IMG/VR virus record: IMGVR_UViG_3300031972_001909
Location: 1-31,823 of that record
Strand: one strand, 5' to 3'
Source: a virus
Length of the DNA: 31,823 nt
Of the stretch, positions 1,589 through 31,815 are shown piece after piece. Within the stretch, counting starts at the first letter, position 1; each line of letters opens with the position of its first letter. A model generated the notes under the pieces. It was not told where the DNA came from, made no database searches, and saw only the letters and a list, made by a program, of their open reading frames with translations. A program made the position numbers and the translations under genes.

Positions 1589-3142
1589 CTAGAAGCCTGA
1601 GAAGTTGACGTTGGTTACTGGCTCAAATCTTATATCACTACAGCGATAACGGAACGCATCGTAATCGTGATCTTCTTGGTCTGTGTCGATGTCATCTGGG
1701 TTTTTGCTATCACGCGCCAATATTGGGAAACGAGATATAAACCCTCGGCAATTCTCAAACACATAAACGGCAGGGCGTTCTGGAACGCCTTTCTCGGACA
1801 TAGCACCTTCAACCGCAGACTCTAAAAGTTCACAAATAATGGAAGCTCCGTTAATCCTTGATCCTGCTCGTTTGTCGGCCGCTTTCCAGTGTACCCCTTG
1901 AACGGCCATCTTATCCGCAATACTAATTTGATCGTCGTTAGGCGTGTAGATAGCGCTATCCGCTACCCCCGCTTTAACTGGCGAGTTCACGATGTTAGGC
2001 GTTATATTCATCTGACCATTAACGCTACCCTCGATTAACGTGCCGTCGTACAAGCATTGATCTATTCTCTTAACCATCTTAGCTACGTTAGTGGATGACA
2101 TTTGCAAGCCTTTGTTCGACTCGTTAGGTTGGCAACCATACCACTCACCAATGAGGAAAAGAGTTCCTTTAGGGTAATGCTTAAGTTTACCGTTAATCTC
2201 GACTGGCGTACCGTCTGACTCAGCAAACCATAAGTTACTGAACGGCTTTGACTCGCCCCAGTCGTGCGCTCTGTCAACAGTCCAATCTTTAGGGATATTA
2301 AACGGCTTAACAACGTGTATGGATTCGTCCCACAGATAATCGAAACGACCGCCTGTTGTTACTGACCAGTCGCCATCTACCCATGCTTTGCGCTTGTTAG
2401 GATCTTTAATCGCCATAAGGAAAGCGATATAAGTCTTATCAAGGTACTTGTTTTCTTTCCATGATCCGTGGATAGCCACACGGCTAATCTCTACTCGTTC
2501 TGGCTCGTTACCATCTTCAAGGTCGATTTCCATGTAATCTCTTTGGATTCGACCGCGAGGGACTGGATCAATGAAACGCTTTTTAACCCAATTATGGCCT
2601 ACGCCAAACGGGTTAGTAGTGGAGAAACATTCTAAAGGGATATTAGGCAACAATTGTCCATTTGGTAGCGGGTAATCTTCTGGCCTGAATGATGAACGCA
2701 TACAAGAAAACATAGCGAGATAAAATTCATCGTCTGCTCGCTTGGTTAGTTCGTTATGACCTATAAACGGGTACTCGTTACCGTGGTAGTTCCAATAGCC
2801 ATCTGCTTTGCGCTCATAGCGAAAATGCAACTCCTCGCCTGTAGGCCATACCCATTTTAGATCGGACGGAGATGACAGAAATTTAGCGCCATCTTGGAAC
2901 TTACCAAACAGACGCTTAGATTGTGCGATAATGTCGCCAAGGTTTTTATACTCGATATCGAATATAACGCCACGCCAGAATGAGCCATATCCTAGACCAA
3001 CGAGCCTACGAAACCTCATAAGCTGTGTCGCTGTCTTAGATGATCCGCGAGTACCTTCAAACAGAACTTCATTTGCGGGACAAGAGAGCGCCAATGATTG
3101 CGCCCCTTTTTGCGGCTGTAAAACCACGTTGTAATTAGTCAC
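1589..3142 (-). CDS. terL: terminase large subunit
   Basis: The 517-residue DNA-packaging motor has an N-terminal ATPase and a C-terminal RNase H-like nuclease. I place the start at the GTG (3142-3140), which overlaps the stop of the small subunit. An upstream ATG in the same frame (3277) only adds a shadow of the small-subunit gene. The Walker A-like loop is FEGTRGSSKTA (28-38). The nuclease acidic residues fit D294 (RAHDWGES), E333 (IGEWYG), D395 (GVADSAIY) and D494 (HDYDAFRYR), as in Terminase_6 C-domains. It acts with TerS and the portal; no portal gene follows here because the next genes (below 1556) run the other way. Confidence 0.93.
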   Translation of the reverse strand: MTNYNVVLQPQKGAQSLALSCPANEVLFEGTRGSSKTATQLMRFRRLVGLGYGSFWRGVIFDIEYKNLGDIIAQSKRLFGKFQDGAKFLSSPSDLKWVWPTGEELHFRYERKADGYWNYHGNEYPFIGHNELTKRADDEFYLAMFSCMRSSFRPEDYPLPNGQLLPNIPLECFSTTNPFGVGHNWVKKRFIDPVPRGRIQRDYMEIDLEDGNEPERVEISRVAIHGSWKENKYLDKTYIAFLMAIKDPNKRKAWVDGDWSVTTGGRFDYLWDESIHVVKPFNIPKDWTVDRAHDWGESKPFSNLWFAESDGTPVEINGKLKHYPKGTLFLIGEWYGCQPNESNKGLQMSSTNVAKMVKRIDQCLYDGTLIEGSVNGQMNITPNIVNSPVKAGVADSAIYTPNDDQISIADKMAVQGVHWKAADKRAGSRINGASIICELLESAVEGAMSEKGVPERPAVYVFENCRGFISRFPILARDSKNPDDIDTDQEDHDYDAFRYRCSDIRFEPVTNVNFSGF

Positions 3143-3605
3143 GATGCAAAAGCCCGTCTTGGTTAGCTTGCGCCATCTTCTCCCATTCCTCAGCATTGTC
3201 TGCTTGAGGTACAGGCATGATGTTGTGAACTGTATTGACTGTAAGCGCCTCTTTCTCAAACGCCTTGACATCAACATGCTTACCGCACATTTCTAAAAAC
3301 TTACTTGCTGCGGTTGCGTTAACCATCTTGGGGTTTCCTTCGCTATCGAAAACTTCTTGAGCGTTAAACTCGTAAGACTTTTTCGACTGCTCAAGCACCC
3401 AATTTGCGGATATTTTGGTCTCTTGGCATCTTTCTTGCTTAAGCTCTGCTATTTTTGCTGAAACCTTCGGATTTGCCAACAATCCCGAACCTTGCTGATT
3501 CGCGCTTTTAGGGCTATATCCTGCCCTGATTGCCGCTTGAGTTGCGTTTAAGTCAATAATGAACTCACGGCAAAACTGCAACTGTTTGTCGTTTAAATCG
3601 CTCAT
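3135..3605 (-). CDS. terS: terminase small subunit (Terminase_2-like)
   Basis: A 156-residue protein. The start at 3605 (MSDLNDKQLQF) has GAGGAG about 9 bases upstream; a longer frame reaching 3647 lacks this. NDKQLQFCREFIIDLNATQAA followed by IRAGYSPKSAN and SGLLANPKV matches the N-terminal DNA-binding helices typical of the Terminase_2 family. The middle is probably the oligomerisation helices and the C-terminus may contact TerL. The stop overlaps the terL GTG. It recognises phage DNA for packaging. Confidence 0.9.
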   Translation of the reverse strand: MSDLNDKQLQFCREFIIDLNATQAAIRAGYSPKSANQQGSGLLANPKVSAKIAELKQERCQETKISANWVLEQSKKSYEFNAQEVFDSEGNPKMVNATAASKFLEMCGKHVDVKAFEKEALTVNTVHNIMPVPQADNAEEWEKMAQANQDGLLHRD

Positions 3606-3610
3606 TATAA

Positions 3611-3805
3611 CTACTCCTCTCGTCCGCTCTTCATCGCTAACTCGCATATATGCGCTGAGGCAAAACGGCGTAAATACAGATTCACAGCGCCCATAAAGAT
3701 ATCAAGCTCTTTGCAAATATCTTCTTTTGTTTTGCCTGCTAAGAGTAGCGATTCAATACGAGGCGCCAATTCTGCAACCTCGTGAATTCGTAAACGTTTA
3801 GCCAT
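3611..3805 (-). CDS. small putative helix-turn-helix protein, 64 aa
   Basis: A 64-residue helical protein. RIHEVAELAPRIESLLLAGKTKEDICKELDI followed by MGAVNLYLRRF reads as a helix-turn-helix (GKTKEDICKELDIFMGAVN). GGAG precedes the ATG. It lies directly upstream of terS, whose SD overlaps this gene's last codons. It may be an accessory DNA-binding subunit for packaging or a local regulator; both are inference. Confidence 0.65.
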   Translation of the reverse strand: MAKRLRIHEVAELAPRIESLLLAGKTKEDICKELDIFMGAVNLYLRRFASAHICELAMKSGREE

Positions 3806-3820
3806 CCAACCAAACTCCTA

Positions 3821-4003
3821 TTATGCGTATTGCCAACGGTAGCGCCCTTTGATTTCAGCGCCCTTCTCAGTCAAGTATATCATAGGCTCTGAATGAGATA
3901 CATATCTCTCCGGTCGCTTGACTCGAAACTCACCTTCTGGTGTGTCGATGATAAGCCAAACGCCTACGACAGGATAGAATAATTCGCTGTTCCAGTGTGT
4001 CAT
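3821..4003 (-). CDS. hypothetical phage protein, 60 aa
   Basis: I start this at the ATG at 4003, which overlaps the upstream stop as ATGA; the frame can also open at a GTG at 4012. The protein is beta-rich (VVGVWLIIDTPEGEFRVKRPERY, then IYLTEKGAEIKGRYRWQYA) with no membrane segment. Its position suggests co-expression with terminase. Function unknown. Confidence 0.65.
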   Translation of the reverse strand: MTHWNSELFYPVVGVWLIIDTPEGEFRVKRPERYVSHSEPMIYLTEKGAEIKGRYRWQYA

Positions 4004-5786: not shown

Positions 5787-6186
5787 TTCTCTAACTCCTA
5801 CCTCGTTATTCGATAAAGCCAGTATGCTACGACTCGCGCCAATGTTCCAATTGGTTGTTTCTATCGAATTGAGTGTTTTGATTAAAATATTCAACAATAA
5901 CGATTAATAAAAAAAGAAATAACAATATAACCCTTTAAACATAAGGGTTTAACTAATTACTTATTATATTATTACTATATATATACTATATTCTATATCT
6001 CTCTCTTATTTCTCTCTTAGGAGATATGCTTATTAGTGATATGTCTTTTAGTGATATTAGGGGTATTAGTATATTTATTTCTTGAAACTCAATAATAAAA
6101 TAAGGAATTCGCAAACCCTCACCACCACTGGGCTATAACGTTATTACCTCAAATATTTTAAAAAAATAACAATAATAAAAGGCATA
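5787..6186. other. AT-rich gene-free spacer with iteron-like repeats and a hairpin
   Basis: No credible gene on either strand. It contains a 7-bp hairpin (AACCCTT 5929-5935 with AAGGGTT 5943-5949), a TA-rich tract (5960-6000), a doubled TCTCTCTTA (5998-6020 area), and TTAGTGATAT at 6033-6042 and again at 6048-6057 with a shorter TTAGTATAT at 6066-6074. A leftward promoter for the block below could be TTGGAA-18-CATACT around 5820-5850. An origin or regulatory region is possible but unproven. Confidence 0.4.
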
Positions 6187-6190
6187 AAAA

Positions 6191-6208
6191 AAGCCCCTAA
6201 AGGGGCTT
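6191..6208 (-). terminator. intrinsic terminator after Prim-Pol/helicase gene
   Basis: AAGCCCC, loop of four, GGGGCTT. Read leftward it is followed by TTTTTATG, directly after the stop at 6225. Same stem as at 1562, 24812 and, reversed, at 11238 and 30821. Confidence 0.85.
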
Positions 6209-6224
6209 ATGGTATTCCTGACAG

Positions 6225-15224: not shown

Positions 15225-15413
15225 ATGACTTGGGTTTTAGGTCTGTGCTTGATGGTGATTTTTGCCCTTCTTCTGTTGGCTTATATCCTGGGTTGGGCAC
15301 TAACTAAATTAAATATACGCTGGTATAAAAAGCTTTGCAGAAAACAATATATAGAGATGATTTCAAAAGAAGCCATCCGAAAATATTTAGACGAAAAAGG
15401 GCGAAACAAATGA
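15225..15413 (+). CDS. single-pass membrane protein, 62 aa
   Basis: Starts at ATG 15225 with GGGGTGG upstream. One strong hydrophobic segment at about 1-25 (WVLGLCLMVIFALLLLAYIL) is followed by a basic cytoplasmic tail (IRWYKKLCRKQY, KYLDEKGRNK). The stop overlaps the dUTPase ATG (ATGA). Function unknown; the topology would be N-out or signal-anchor. Confidence 0.55.
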   Translation: MTWVLGLCLMVIFALLLLAYILGWALTKLNIRWYKKLCRKQYIEMISKEAIRKYLDEKGRNK

Positions 15414-15886
15414 TCAAACTAGAACGACTAACAGAAACAGCACAAGAACCAACATACGGAAGCGACCATGCGGCTTGCTTTGATATTCGAGCGGATATTG
15501 AGGGGCGAGAGGTTACGGCATCTTGGGGGGATTTAACTGATGCTTCTACTCGTAATAGCATAGGCGAAGCAATCCTGTATCCTGATGAGCGCATCCTTAT
15601 TCCGACTGGCTTTGTATTCCATATCCCAGAAGGTTATCAGCTAAAGATTAACCCTCGATCAGGTTTGGCATGGAGAAGCGGAATAACTGTTTTAAACGCG
15701 CCCGCTACGATTGACAGTGATTACAAAGGCGAATTGTTTGTGGTGCTTTATAACACTTCTGGCGAGACTTTCACAATCAATCACGGAGACCGAATAGCTC
15801 AGGCTGAATTGATGCCCGCTATCCGCTGCGATTTTGAAAGCCTTGGCGAACGTAAAGGCGGTTTTGGTAGTAGCGGGAAATCCTAA
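15410..15886 (+). CDS. dut: dUTP diphosphatase (dUTPase)
   Basis: A 158-residue trimeric-type dUTPase converting dUTP to dUMP and pyrophosphate, keeping uracil out of phage DNA. The five motifs are in order: AACFDIRA (21-28), PRSGLAW (82-88), APATIDSDYKGEL (97-109) with the catalytic aspartate, HGDRIAQ (125-131) and RKGGFGSSG (148-156). Start at 15410 by ATGA coupling; a longer frame from 15335 overlaps the membrane-protein gene. Last recognisable gene before the RNA-like region. Confidence 0.95.
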   Translation: MIKLERLTETAQEPTYGSDHAACFDIRADIEGREVTASWGDLTDASTRNSIGEAILYPDERILIPTGFVFHIPEGYQLKINPRSGLAWRSGITVLNAPATIDSDYKGELFVVLYNTSGETFTINHGDRIAQAELMPAIRCDFESLGERKGGFGSSGKS

Positions 15887-15917
15887 TAAGAACCTCGAAA
15901 CCTATAGGTAAAATCAA

Positions 15918-15946
15918 TTATACTTATCTGAGTTTTGTGGCATACT
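15918..15946 (+). promoter_or_regulatory. putative promoter of the structured-RNA region
   Basis: TTATAC (15918-15923), a 17-base spacer and CATACT (15941-15946). Transcription would begin near 15953, a few bases before the first hairpin at 15965. A palindrome ACCTATAGGT lies just upstream at 15900-15909 and may be an operator. Confidence 0.45.
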
Positions 15947-15952
15947 TAACTT

Positions 15953-16490
15953 TCAGAACGAGTTCCTAGCCTCGTTAAAAGCTAGGGTGTTTTAAGAAGT
16001 GTTGTACGCGGCAGCAGAGTACGCCTAGTTAACAGGCAGCAAATGATTGGAATGAAAAAATTTCGCCCGCCCAATCACAGCATTTCTTAAAGCACACTGA
16101 GAGCGGTCGAACTTTGTTCTTATCGGTATGGCATATCGCTAACCATAAAAATGTGGCGTTGGGCAAATTCGGTGATAGGTATGAACCCGCGATATGTCAT
16201 AACCAATAAGAGCATAATGCTGTACCCGTGGCACTGACATCGAGTTAGCCTTGATCCATGAACCTCCTTATGGGGACGCGCACGATGTAGAGATAAACGA
16301 GGTGATGGTGTGGTTAGCCGGAAGAAGAAAATAACCGATTTTATTAGAGTGACGAATGCACGGGCTGACGTGAAGGTTCTATAACGAAACTGACCATTGA
16401 CCATACAGTAAGTAGTTTCGCAAAAGATATTTAGGTCAAATGCTAGAGATCAGCGCTAGCCGTCACTCTAATGAAATCATAACCCCAATA
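15953..16490 (+). ncRNA. candidate large structured noncoding RNA (about 500 nt)
   Basis: The 621 bases between dut and 16508 hold no convincing gene but nest into compatible helices. (1) CCTAGC 15965-15970 with GCTAGG 15981-15986. (2) 15987-16004 with 16078-16095, 18 bp including three G-U; inside it GCCT/AGGC (16023-16037) and TGATTGG 16044-16050 with CCAATCA 16071-16077. (3) 16115-16139 with 16189-16214, about 24 bp with one bulge, one mismatch and two G-U. (4) 16234-16242 with 16283-16290. (5) GGTTA/TAACC 16312-16336. (6) 16337-16354 with 16461-16478, 18 bp with one G-U, enclosing hairpins at 16359-16372, 16385-16420 and 16442-16460. Several helices abut exactly. Nearly all non-Watson-Crick pairs are G-U on the + strand and would be A-C on the other, which indicates + transcription. 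Size and style recall the ornate phage RNAs GOLLD and ROOL, but I cannot assign a class. Ends are approximate. Confidence 0.72.
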
Positions 16491-16507
16491 ACCCTAAAGG
16501 TACCAAC

Positions 16508-16603
16508 ATGGCAGACAAAGGCAAGAAACGACCAAATCCGCACGACATTATTAAGCCAACTGGCTTACCTACACGTGGCAAGCCTACGCGGTCGAGTCGC
16601 TAA
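16508..16603 (+). CDS. small basic protein, 31 aa
   Basis: A 31-codon frame with the local SD type AAAGGT upstream. The product (MADKGKKRPNPHDIIKPTGL, then TRGKPTRSSR) is basic and proline-rich. It lies out of frame with the longer open frame starting at 16440, and its stop is 1 base from the ATG at 16605. Not in a family I recognise. Confidence 0.5.
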   Translation: MADKGKKRPNPHDIIKPTGLPTRGKPTRSSR

Positions 16604-16604
16604 C

Positions 16605-17018
16605 ATGCTACCTACTGAAATCTATATGGCCGTTTTTGCGGCCTTTATCCTCTTCGACTCTACGCGGGTTCCTGCCCTGGCGTGTTTGCTTGTGTCGGTA
16701 ACAGGCTACCAGTTTGAGGGTTTGCCAGACTACGCATACGAGGGTTATTACACATCATGCCAATGGGCTTCATTGCTTGCAGGCGTAATGCTCGTTAGAC
16801 AATATCCGTTAATGTCATTTACCCTTTTAGGCGCTTCTGTGAACGAATATATAGGCCTGAATACGTACCTTACATACGGCGAACCGTCCGGCTACAATTT
16901 GAGAGGTTTCTTTGCTATACTGATACAAATCTTATTGTTATGGAGTGGTGGTCGTGGAGAAATTAGAGATACTATACATAATCTTGTTGGTGTCGTCCGT
17001 AAGCGTCTGCATCTATAA
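16605..17018 (+). CDS. multi-pass membrane protein, 137 aa
   Basis: Start at ATG 16605 (MLPTEIYMAVFAAFILF), coupled to the stop at 16603; the frame also extends back to 16440, but that part overlaps the 31-aa gene and the RNA-like region. Hydrophobic stretches occur at about 6-18, 23-33, 52-62 (ASLLAGVMLV), 68-76 and 101-113 (FFAILIQILLLW). The C-terminus is basic (VRKRLHL). It lies directly before the holin-like gene, so a lysis or membrane role is likely. No family recognised. Confidence 0.6.
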   Translation: MLPTEIYMAVFAAFILFDSTRVPALACLLVSVTGYQFEGLPDYAYEGYYTSCQWASLLAGVMLVRQYPLMSFTLLGASVNEYIGLNTYLTYGEPSGYNLRGFFAILIQILLLWSGGRGEIRDTIHNLVGVVRKRLHL

Positions 17019-17487: not shown

Positions 17488-17877
17488 TTAAAATTCACCA
17501 TCTGTCAGCGGGTTATACTGCCTGATCACTAGAATAAAAGGTTCATCCCCTTGCTCTTCTAGTAACTTTTCTAGCGCACTGTCTGATCCTAACAAATTGT
17601 ATTCTTTATTGTGATTTAGACCGATTAGAATGCAACCCTCAGAATGATACGGGTATACTCCACCGTGGAATTCTATTGCCGTTCGGGGTTCGGTATCTTG
17701 AACTCGGTAATATTGAAATCGGCCTGTTTTATCCCTGACTACTTCATAAGCCCCCTCAGGTATACACGATATAGAAAACTCGTTGTTAGCCCAAGGTCGT
17801 TCGAGCGTCTTAAATTGCCCCATCTTGCCCACTGTTCTATCGCTTAAATACGATCTAAGTAGTGTTCTAATCTTCAA
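17488..17877 (-). CDS. DUF5675 family protein, possible cell-wall enzyme
   Basis: A 129-residue protein of the DUF5675 type (RTLLRSYLSDRTVGKMG, FKTLERPWANNEFSISCIPE). IEFHGGVYPYHSEGCILIG (68-86) has H71 and S79-E-G-C82, which resembles the His...S-x-G-C catalytic signature of L,D-transpeptidases. The function of the family is not established. Its location at the end of the tail module beside the holin-like gene, and the absence of any classical endolysin in the window, make a peptidoglycan role attractive but unproven. ATGA overlap with the upstream gene. Confidence 0.75.
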   Translation of the reverse strand: MKIRTLLRSYLSDRTVGKMGQFKTLERPWANNEFSISCIPEGAYEVVRDKTGRFQYYRVQDTEPRTAIEFHGGVYPYHSEGCILIGLNHNKEYNLLGSDSALEKLLEEQGDEPFILVIRQYNPLTDGEF

Positions 17878-24136: not shown

Positions 24137-24260
24137 GTAGCATCACCTCTATCTTGTTGATAGTATATTCCTATCTGTATAGCTTAATTGTATCTCAATT
24201 ACCTATTGGTATCACGCGGTACTTAATGCTATGTTTTCCTATATTGATACAGGGGGTAGA

Positions 24261-24827
24261 ATGAACAAATCCGAGCACGAAAAATTATTAGCTAGAGAGA
24301 TACGCGAGATATTCGATTATAGCAATGGGCGCCTAATCTGGAGGAGTAGACCGAGACATCACTTCACTACGAAATCGGCCGCGCGAACATTTAACACGAG
24401 GTTCGCAGGAAAAGCCGCAGGATGCGTTACGAGTAGTAGCGGGTATATGAATCTCACAATAACTTTAGATGGGATATCTAAGCAATATCTAGTTCATAGG
24501 CTTATATGGCTTTGGCACACAGGTTCGCTACCGAAGGAAGTCGATCACATTAACCATCACAAAATGGATAATCGCATAGAGAACTTGCGTGACGTCACTC
24601 ACAAAAACAACAGTCGAAACCAAAGTGCACCTAGAAGTAATACATCCGGACACATGGGCGTAACTGCGTATAAAAACAACAGGTGGCGCGTAAGGGTAAT
24701 GATTGATGGGTATAGTAAGCACATAGGATTGTTTGACACGTTAGATGACGCGGTCATAGCTAGGGACGCATTTTATAGAGAGTTTCGATTTCACGAGAAT
24801 CACGGTCAACAAAAAGCCCCAAACTAG
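24261..24827 (+). CDS. HNH endonuclease with AP2 DNA-binding domain (antisense insertion)
   Basis: A 188-residue protein; start at ATG 24261 with AGGGGG upstream, not 24231. The HNH core runs from YLVHRLIWLWHTGSLPKE (76-93) to VDHINHHKMDNRIENLRDVT (94-113; D95, H96, N104/N108). The AP2-like domain is SGHMGVTAYKNNRWRVRVMI (129-148) with HIGLFDTLDDAVIARDAF (154-171). It lies opposite in strand to the tail genes, between the chaperone and tape measure genes, as a free-standing homing endonuclease would. A promoter may lie at TTGGTA...TAATGCTAT near 24213-24233. Confidence 0.9.
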   Translation: MNKSEHEKLLAREIREIFDYSNGRLIWRSRPRHHFTTKSAARTFNTRFAGKAAGCVTSSSGYMNLTITLDGISKQYLVHRLIWLWHTGSLPKEVDHINHHKMDNRIENLRDVTHKNNSRNQSAPRSNTSGHMGVTAYKNNRWRVRVMIDGYSKHIGLFDTLDDAVIARDAFYREFRFHENHGQQKAPN

Positions 24828-28103: not shown

Positions 28104-28126
28104 ATAACGAAAACGGAGCCGTGGGA

Positions 28127-28363
28127 ATGCAACTAGAATCATTGAAAATAGGTCGGAGCTGGAGAAGCAAAAGATTAGAAGGTAATATCACATTCAACAA
28201 TCAGCTTGGGGAGGTTAGTTTAAGGCTAACATCTGACCAAGTTGAAAAGATATTTCTAATCTGTGCCGAGTCAATCGAGGCGACCGCAAAAGAAGCCGCT
28301 CAAGAACTAACCTGCTCAGTAATTGAGCACAGGGAATTAATTGAAAGCAAGGGGGATTTATGA
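28127..28363 (+). CDS. small antisense-cassette protein, 78 aa
   Basis: Start at ATG 28127 with CGGAG 8 bases before it. Residues 1-40 are beta-like (SLKIGRSWRSKRLEGNITFN, GEVSLRLT) and the rest helical (VEKIFLICAESIEATAKEAA). First gene of a rightward six-gene cassette inside the head-tail connector region. ATGA overlap with the next gene. Function unknown. Confidence 0.6.
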   Translation: MQLESLKIGRSWRSKRLEGNITFNNQLGEVSLRLTSDQVEKIFLICAESIEATAKEAAQELTCSVIEHRELIESKGDL

Positions 28364-28830
28364 ACAACGAATTAATAAAAAAGGCATATAAGCTTTTTGA
28401 TGGGGTTTGGCCTTATAGAGATAATTGCAACATGGTTGCAACAGACAAATATGGGGCGGTCGAGTTTTACTACACCACCACGCCGTTTGATGCTTTTTCT
28501 AATGATTCGGGCCTTTGGCATTGGGTGGGCACAAAAGCCGACTTCGATGCATATGGGGAGAGCTTGAAAGAAGAATGGATGCCAGATGTAGGGCAGGAGT
28601 GTGAGTACCCATCTGGCAGTGGAGTTGTTAGGTTGCCGCCTGACATTAATGGCGTATTAATAGTTGAGGAAGGCGAAGAAGGATATAAGAGAGTTCATAA
28701 GTCAAATTGCCGCCCAATTAAATCAGACAAAGAAAAACGAGCAGACGAAATGTTTGACATCGTAAAAGATGCCACGGACACATACCACGCTTGCGAGCTT
28801 CTAGTGCAAAATGGTTACAAGAAGTGTTAG
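28360..28830 (+). CDS. antisense-cassette protein of unknown function, 156 aa
   Basis: A 156-residue, tryptophan- and tyrosine-rich protein. The middle has SGLWHWVGTKADFDAYGESL and a probable small barrel (GQECEYPSGSGVVRLPPDIN). The C-terminal helix holds two cysteines (YHACELLVQNGYKKC). No recognised family. SD GGGGG and ATGA coupling to the gene before. Confidence 0.65.
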   Translation: MNNELIKKAYKLFDGVWPYRDNCNMVATDKYGAVEFYYTTTPFDAFSNDSGLWHWVGTKADFDAYGESLKEEWMPDVGQECEYPSGSGVVRLPPDINGVLIVEEGEEGYKRVHKSNCRPIKSDKEKRADEMFDIVKDATDTYHACELLVQNGYKKC

Positions 28831-28907
28831 AGGCTGACGTTCTAATTCAAACTGTCGTGATTCTGTTTGCGGCTTATCGAATGTATAAATTTAATAAGGG
28901 GCTATGA
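28824..28907 (+). CDS. possible very small membrane protein, 27 aa (GTG start)
   Basis: A 27-codon frame from a GTG overlapping the stop of the previous gene, ending in an ATGA overlap with the next. One hydrophobic stretch (VLIQTVVILFAAYRMY) then KFNKGL. Exact coupling on both sides is the main support; no clear SD. Confidence 0.35.
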   Translation: MLEADVLIQTVVILFAAYRMYKFNKGL

Positions 28908-29110
28908 TGTCTATACGAGAAGATTTAACACAAGCAATAAGGGGCTTGTCTGAGTCTAAGATAAGCGACTTAGACGAGAATGTAGAAAACGTGGTTGAGT
29001 TGTTGGATTCGAAGTTACGTGATATTGAGTTAGCTTTAGAGGCTTTACTAAAGCATACAACGGATAGCGAAATAGAAAACGTTGTACATGAACTCTATAT
29101 GAGTATATGA
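28904..29110 (+). CDS. small acidic helical protein, 68 aa
   Basis: A 68-residue acidic coiled-coil-like protein (IREDLTQAIRGLSESKISDL, VVELLDSKLRDIELALEALL). AAGGGG precedes the ATGATG start. No family recognised. Confidence 0.6.
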   Translation: MMSIREDLTQAIRGLSESKISDLDENVENVVELLDSKLRDIELALEALLKHTTDSEIENVVHELYMSI

Positions 29111-29119
29111 GGGGTCATA

Positions 29120-29272
29120 ATGAGCGAACTATTCCAAGGTGTGAAACCTTGCAACTCTTGTAGACATTACGAGCAAGTTAACCGCGCTCACACTTGCAAG
29201 AAATACAAACAATTAACAGAGACGGCGCGACTAATATCGGTTTCGTGCCACAGAGAGAAGAAGGATAATTAA
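29120..29272 (+). CDS. small zinc-ribbon-like protein, 50 aa
   Basis: A 50-residue frame with SD GAGGGG. Four cysteines in CNSCRHYEQ (C11, C14), C26 and C43 (VSCHREKKDN) are spaced like a minimal zinc-binding protein. It stops 1 base before the next ATG. Similar Cys-rich small proteins are common in phage accessory regions. Confidence 0.55.
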   Translation: MSELFQGVKPCNSCRHYEQVNRAHTCKKYKQLTETARLISVSCHREKKDN

Positions 29273-29273
29273 T

Positions 29274-29597
29274 ATGGAAAAGCCAGTTTGGAGAATGAAT
29301 ACGGGTAGCGGTGTGCCTAAGGACTATAATGGGCTAGCTTACACTCCTAAAGGGTCTAAAAAAATGGATGATTTCCCTAACAATTGGTCACGTGACAGAC
29401 TTTGGACCTTGAATGGGCATCGGGAGGATATATACGCCTACCAAACCAACCGAAATAGGCAGTCAAAATTCCACAGAGTTCAGTGTGATTGGTGTGTGAA
29501 CGGTTACGAACTAACAGGAATATCCACTTGTGATGTTTGTCGCAAATGTGAAGGACACGGTTTTTATTGGGAGAGAATAAAAAAGCGCAGCAATTAA
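29274..29597 (+). CDS. zinc-ribbon protein, 107 aa
   Basis: A 107-residue protein. The first 70 residues are polar with WRMNTGSGVPKDYNGLAYTP. The C-terminal part has CDWCVNGYELTG, then CDVCRKCEGHGFYWERIKKR, a DnaJ-like CxxC / CxxCxGxG metal-binding module. Last gene of the cassette; its stop overlaps that of the convergent connector gene at 29594 and no terminator is visible between them. Confidence 0.6.
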   Translation: MEKPVWRMNTGSGVPKDYNGLAYTPKGSKKMDDFPNNWSRDRLWTLNGHREDIYAYQTNRNRQSKFHRVQCDWCVNGYELTGISTCDVCRKCEGHGFYWERIKKRSN

Positions 29598-30861: not shown

Positions 30862-31815
30862 TTACTGATCCGCATCAGCTAAAGTGATAACACCCGCTGT
30901 GTGTTTGATGTCAGTAGCGACTTTAGTCCAGTTTGCACCAGTTGCAAGCTCTGCATCAGAAGGAGATTTGCCGCCCGCTGTCTCGTCCCAAGTGTAACCT
31001 TTAAGACCTAGACCGAACGTGTAATCTACTTGCATTGTAGTCTCAATGCGAGATTGACCGTTGTTAGTCTGGATATTAGAGATAATATCATTTGAGTCGT
31101 GAACAACCGCAGCACCTTCTACTAGAGAAAGAACCTTAGATACGTTCGGAGTACCAGTTTCGTACAATGCAGGCGCATCAGTGACAACAACCATTTTACC
31201 TAGAATGTCTACCACGCGTACATTCTGAGCCTGGAACAACTGAGGCGTGTTAGTCAAGTTAGCACCGACTAGCTTGTGGTACGCTGCGCCAGTCATGATC
31301 TGAGCCGCTAGATCGCCTGAACGATCGCCGAACTTAGCGTGTGCGTTGTTCATTGCAGTGTAAGACAAGCCCGCAGAGCCAGACACGTCGTTAGTGGCAG
31401 TCGTTTGGTTAGAGATAGCAGCAACCAATGCTGCAATAGCAGAGTTAAGCTGGTCTTGCATCAACGCTTCTGCGAAGTTGCGGCTTGCTACTTCAATGCC
31501 TTCTGCTGTTGGCTTGTTCAACCAAGTAAGCTGTGAAGGTTCGTAACGGATAGGGCCGAAACCACCTGCAACTTTAACACTAGAGTGTTTAAGCTGAGAT
31601 AGATCAGTTGCTGTTTCCGTTGCTTGAGCCGCATAACGATCAACACGGCGCTGTGCTGAGTGAATAGCTGCAAAGAATGACTCTTGCAAGAAATCACCGT
31701 CAAAGCCTTCGGTCGTTAAGCGGATTGCGTTGCCTGACGCAGTATTGAATTTGTCAACCATTTGGCCGAGTGTTTCAATAGTCGCAGGCATGATGTATTG
31801 GTTAAATACTTCCAT
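30862..31815 (-). CDS. major capsid protein
   Basis: A 317-residue protein with an HK97-type capsid look: N-terminal MEVFNQYIMPATIETLGQMV, a helical RRVDRYAAQATETATDLSQL, then IEVASRNFAEALMQDQLNSA and beta segments (NVRVVDILGKMVVVTDAPAL, MQVDYTFGLGLKGYTWDET). Length and composition fit a coat protein without a decoration domain. Its start is 8 bases from the window edge, so its promoter and the portal or scaffold genes lie outside. Confidence 0.85.
   Translation of the reverse strand: MEVFNQYIMPATIETLGQMVDKFNTASGNAIRLTTEGFDGDFLQESFFAAIHSAQRRVDRYAAQATETATDLSQLKHSSVKVAGGFGPIRYEPSQLTWLNKPTAEGIEVASRNFAEALMQDQLNSAIAALVAAISNQTTATNDVSGSAGLSYTAMNNAHAKFGDRSGDLAAQIMTGAAYHKLVGANLTNTPQLFQAQNVRVVDILGKMVVVTDAPALYETGTPNVSKVLSLVEGAAVVHDSNDIISNIQTNNGQSRIETTMQVDYTFGLGLKGYTWDETAGGKSPSDAELATGANWTKVATDIKHTAGVITLADADQ

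Follow-up and report, generated by a model that had tools for sequence, protein, structure and literature searches.

We analysed a virus record of 31,823 bases, the whole of which is referred to here as the window. Its gene content is that of a tailed phage and includes genes for terminase, head, connector, tail, Prim-Pol primase, SSB, DNA helicase and dUTPase. The dUTPase gene (15412-15886, + strand) matches Pfam PF00692, PHROG 135 and NCBIfam dUTP diphosphatase above cut-off and forms the upstream boundary of the predicted RNA described below. The first gene 3' of this RNA is a 31-amino-acid ORF (16508-16603, + strand; translation MADKGKKRPNPHDIIKPTGLPTRGKPTRSSR). Its ATG at 16508 is preceded by a phage-style ribosome site, CCTAAAGGTACCAAC, in which AAAGGT follows the style of the phage's early genes. 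An earlier interpretation made from the letters of the DNA (the sequence-only reading) had described 621 gene-free bases at this locus. With the dUTPase stop at 15886 and the next credible + strand start at 16508, the interval 15887-16507 indeed lacks a credible gene.

Codon scores give no coding signal on either strand of 15887-16507. A 94-amino-acid ORF on the - strand (16120-16404) has a negative codon score, compared with 0.16-0.35 for most confident genes. The downstream genes had been labelled 'lysis-type', a label for which family support is absent. The nearest hint of lysis is a DUF5675 protein encoded on the opposite strand (17488-17877), and searches of IMG/VR, phages and plasmids found no relatives of the 137- and 69-amino-acid downstream proteins. 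No tRNA genes were found in the 31.8-kb window, and the record may be a fragment.

A promoter-like TTATAC-17-CATACT had also been proposed just upstream. Its two elements match the consensus at just 2/6 and 4/6 positions, which makes the claim weak, and our scan returned 3 promoter-like sites against 3.8 expected from shuffles. A possible extended -10 element, TGGCATACT (15939-15947, + strand), can be read from the sequence; it is a weak candidate, as the scan showed no excess, and it might set the RNA start near 15954. In the interval from the end of the last helix (16478) to the ATG (16508), we found no intrinsic terminator. The sole candidate terminator (16628-16643) sits within the next ORF and does not exceed chance expectation. 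With no terminator before 16508, the RNA could belong to the mRNA of the downstream genes.

Predicted domains and fold statistics

The predicted RNA begins with an H-type pseudoknot (15957-15986, + strand) made of two perfect 6-bp stems and short loops, a geometry that we take to be the classical, textbook form. Stem S1 pairs AACGAG (15957-15962) with CTCGTT (15971-15976), stem S2 pairs CCTAGC (15965-15970) with GCTAGG (15981-15986), and loops L1 and L3 are TT and AAAA, respectively. Written as RNA, the element is AACGAG-UU-CCUAGC-CUCGUU-AAAA-GCUAGG, with one loop of 2 nt and an A-rich loop of 4 nt. Pseudoknots of 6+6 bp with short loops occur once in the window, both strands included, and 6 were found in 60 whole-window shuffles. 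This 5' pseudoknot is a feature additional to the sequence-only reading, which overlooked it in stating that all helices nest without conflict.

The last base of the pseudoknot (15986) directly abuts domain P1 (15987-16095, + strand). The 19-bp closing helix of P1 (15987-16005/16077-16095; pair probability 0.97) is the second-best stem of the window's + strand (score 39.0) and encloses two inner hairpins, at 16023-16037 (loop AGUUAAC) and 16045-16076. Domain P2 (16115-16214, + strand) is an arm (16115-16139/16189-16214; pair probabilities 0.83-1.00) of 9+3+12 bp with one mismatch and one bulge. This arm carries a hairpin at 16143-16156 and ranks fifth among the + strand stems of the window even when scored ungapped. 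Domain P3 (16217-16311, + strand) is a branched arm (16217-16229/16297-16311; pair probabilities 0.87-0.98) with an inner helix at 16237-16242/16283-16288. Between P3 and P4, the minimum free energy fold of the 621 nt contains a GGTTA/TAACC linker hairpin (16312-16336, + strand). Its loop, GCCGGAAGAAGAAAA, is purine-rich, and positions 16317-16331 have a mean unpaired probability of 0.93.

Domain P4 (16337-16478, + strand) is closed by an 18-bp helix (16337-16354/16461-16478; pair probability 1.00) that is the top stem of the whole window (score 40.5). Its multi-branch loop holds a mini-hairpin (16358-16365), an arm (16366-16438) and a hairpin (16442-16460), in agreement with the earlier description of a third helix closing a multi-branch junction. 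All three long helices of that description were found where it had placed them, with mean pair probabilities of 0.83-1.00; the first is 19 bp long. The AGUUAAC loop in P1 (16027-16033) contains the palindrome GUUAAC (16028-16033), through which two copies of the RNA could kiss and dimerise, as multimeric ornate RNAs do. Among a dozen loops, chance alone could well supply one of this kind, and the palindrome is only suggestive of loop kissing.

The tip of P3 is the hairpin UCCAUGA-ACCUCC-UUAUGGG (16255-16274, + strand), which has a 7-bp stem and loop bases that are 0.98-0.99 unpaired. ACCUCC makes up the entire loop, and the extended match, ACCUCCUUA (16262-16270), is identical to the 3'-terminal sequence of proteobacterial 16S rRNA, which is the anti-Shine-Dalgarno sequence. 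This loop, too, is additional to the sequence-only reading. The 9-mer has no other copy on either strand of the window. It arose in 15 of 20000 region shuffles. The match was spotted after the fact, and a correction for all the other motifs that might have caught attention would leave it no more than marginal. We regard the anti-Shine-Dalgarno loop as a lead with moderate support.

The + strand of the 621-nt interval folds at -186 kcal/mol and beats its shuffles (z = -4.84), while the - strand reaches z = -1.82. For the 537 nt of 15954-16490, the corresponding values are z -4.6 on the + strand, where 0 of 100 dinucleotide shuffles fold as well, and z -2.5 on the - strand, where 1 of 100 does. 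Scored without gaps, the top two stems on the entire 31.8-kb + strand (40.5 and 39.0) both lie inside the region, and none of 120 whole-window shuffles contained two stems scoring at least 39. The scores of the region's top three stems sum to 109, more than 10 SD above 400 region shuffles (60.2 +/- 4.5, maximum 77). The same sum is at most 75.5 in all native window segments outside the region (350 scanned). The region does not stand out in a 200-nt sliding z-score, which is uninformative here because the signal resides in long helices. The core helices contain six non-Watson-Crick pairs that are G-U on the + strand, in line with the earlier claim; on the other strand they would be A-C mismatches.

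The region is non-coding, folds better than chance, favours the + strand and matches no family catalogued so far. Its folding scores, the bias towards one strand, a pseudoknot found nowhere else in the window and the absence of coding signal together give good support to the earlier proposal of a large structured RNA on the + strand.

Searches for relatives and comparison with known large RNAs

The sequence-only reading could assign no known class, and the Rfam search bears this out. No relevant family reached its gathering score, and a permissive cmscan covering 801 bases, extended to E 10, produced only two weak and irrelevant matches. Blastn searches of 50,697 phage and 72,556 plasmid records gave only chance matches of 30-40 bases. 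We also gathered related loci via the dUTPase and helicase genes. These contain no DNA similar to the region and, outside G+C-rich sequence, no non-repetitive stem pair of comparable score. Exact loop-and-junction patterns had zero matches in IMG/VR or in 84,980 genomes. Two covariance models, R1 and R2, each built from one sequence, matched the window alone in 1.27 Mb of related loci. Applied to samples of 300-400 genomes (bacterial orders, a family and a class), they returned nothing, a weak blank given the insensitivity of a single-sequence model. The genome holds no second copy of the region. With no homologue, covariation, the strongest test, falls away.

At the equivalent place, loci L024 and L025 have small ORFs and no RNA. 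Locus L002, in which the first 111 bases of the dUTPase gene are 96% identical to those of the window, has a different gene after dUTPase and no RNA there. Sampling around this phage is poor, with the nearest helicase relatives at 53% identity, and the singleton status of the region reflects sampling or recent gain. We found no complementarity of at least 12 bases to other phage transcripts, a result that gives no support to a simple antisense role.

Large ornate phage RNAs are, to our knowledge, few; some are among the most abundant RNAs of the cell, and their roles are not known. GOLLD RNAs in phages frequently have tRNA genes close by, and ROOL is an RNA-only nanocage assembled via kissing loops. 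Like the RNA predicted here, both are hundreds of nucleotides long, multi-branched, pseudoknotted and phage-encoded. The resemblance to GOLLD and ROOL noted earlier extends to size, ornateness and phage setting but not to their Rfam covariance models, neither of which matches the region (none up to E 10). The tRNA island of GOLLD is also absent here.

The nearest functional parallel is found in Vibrio phage ICP1, whose most abundant transcript is an ORF-less RNA of ~800 nt that lies between gp139, which opens the lysis cluster, and gp140, with no tRNAs nearby (PMC7567579). Both RNAs occupy gaps of comparable length that hold no ORF, in tailed phages and away from tRNAs. The ICP1 RNA adjoins a lysis cluster, whereas the neighbours of the window RNA are not proven lysis genes. 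The ICP1 RNA region (L142 5150-6100, - strand) folds better than shuffles (z -2.69), and no Rfam model matches it above the gathering score. A clear GC hairpin with a U run (a terminator) closes the ICP1 gap, which lacks CCUCC, whereas the window RNA has the ACCUCC loop and no terminator that we could find. Neither R1 nor R2 matched the ICP1 locus, and R2 did not match the whole ICP1 genome. The two RNAs are thus alike in kind but show no family relationship.

In OLE RNA, P6 holds a perfect anti-Shine-Dalgarno mimic that binds ribosomal protein bS21 (PMC12054373). OLE resembles the window RNA in being large and ornate and in having the mimic (CCUCCU) in a stem (PMC12054373). The OLE anti-Shine-Dalgarno sequence is paired to a Shine-Dalgarno-like strand, whereas ACCUCC of the window RNA sits in an open loop. 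OLE is also mostly a cellular RNA of Bacillota, and its covariance model does not match the region. By covariance model, the window RNA is not GOLLD, ROOL, OLE or any other Rfam family.

Competing explanations and a proposed role

We give about an even chance to the reading that ~15954-16490 encodes a large structured phage RNA on the + strand that is stable, acts in trans and perhaps touches translation. The main rival, which we consider possible though improbable, is a cis-acting 5' leader: a structure in the mRNA of the 31-, 137- and 69-amino-acid genes that governs the timing of their translation or the lifetime of the mRNA. The last helix lies 30 bases 5' of the ATG at 16508, which has a normal ribosome site; nearby genes on the + strand are all co-oriented, and no terminator intervenes. 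However, no strong predicted helix sequesters the ribosome site, which lies outside P4, no switch between two alternative folds stands out, and ~540 nt with four domains is far above the size of known leaders.

Chance pairing of the AT/GC arrangement, or decay of a former coding sequence, would suit a singleton that the 200-nt sliding z-score does not mark. We consider it quite unlikely, as shuffles seldom reproduce the stem scores, the pseudoknot or the z-score singly and would do so for all three together much more rarely, and coding signal is absent. Long inverted repeats in intergenic gaps can also be DNA signals, and the helices might be read as a replication origin, a packaging site or a mobile hairpin element. 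The G-U character of the six core non-Watson-Crick pairs on the + strand and the much worse fold of the - strand make such a DNA element very unlikely. The terminase gene is also far off (1589-3647), the genome has no second copy, and the gap at 5898-6224 beside the primase, rich in AT and in repeats, makes a better candidate for the origin; its equivalent holds repeats in relatives such as L040. The size would also suit a divergent intron of group I or II, a HEARO element, or another known ribozyme or RNA missed by the Rfam models, and an HNH endonuclease is encoded elsewhere in the window (24231-24827). We hold this reading to be most unlikely: Rfam recognised no catalytic core (two irrelevant chance matches at E up to 10 in the cmscan of 801 bases), the flanking genes are intact, and the HNH gene stands alone 8 kb away.

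Under the reading of a trans-acting phage RNA, the 5' H-type pseudoknot would be followed by P1-P4 as mostly independent domains, with long helices that abut and little linker between them. The RNA would be transcribed during infection as a stable species, with the pseudoknot and long helices perhaps protecting it from RNases. It may then act in trans, like the abundant large phage RNAs (the ~800-nt RNA of ICP1, GOLLD and ROOL). The P3 apical loop, with its exact 9-nt copy of the 16S rRNA 3' tail, would meet the translation machinery. It might do so by base-pairing to Shine-Dalgarno sequences or by sequestering a protein of the 30S platform, for example bS21, by analogy with the anti-Shine-Dalgarno mimic of OLE. 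That the loop acts on the translation machinery by either route is a tentative and rather doubtful proposal. A fuller version, which we consider unlikely, is that the RNA is the first example of a previously undescribed class: large phage RNAs that are pseudoknot-capped and have a 16S 3'-end mimic loop, which captures Shine-Dalgarno sequences or bS21 and redirects host translation. If true, an unrelated large phage RNA with a molecular handle would indicate that such RNAs arise repeatedly in phages. The exposed anti-Shine-Dalgarno loop and 5' pseudoknot would also allow a direct test of a role in translation, as OLE RNA seems to have.

Observations elsewhere in the genome

Some of the gene-free gaps of more than 300 bases in the gathered loci are repeat-rich, origin-like and near primases. 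In L040, the gap equivalent to the AT-rich, repeat-containing one beside the Prim-Pol primase of the window (5898-6224) lies at 3555-3995 and contains TTCAATAATCGA-type repeats. The gap at 5898-6224 is a probable replication origin.

The HNH endonuclease gene (PHROG 99; 24231-24827, + strand) is located inside a - strand cluster of tail genes and is likely a selfish insertion. A small group of + strand genes (28121-29597) lies between the head and connector genes. Within it, the stretch 28199-28909 shares ~88% identity with L002, in which these genes are found just upstream of dUTPase. Together with the 111 dUTPase bases at 96% identity, this points to mosaic exchange with the L002 virus. The major head protein (30862-31815, - strand) shares 77% identity with a counterpart encoded on a Comamonas chromosome, and the helicase is nearest to those of phages such as Pseudoalteromonas phage H103 (47-53%). 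The pairing of a Comamonas-like head protein with an H103-like helicase indicates that the genome is strongly mosaic.
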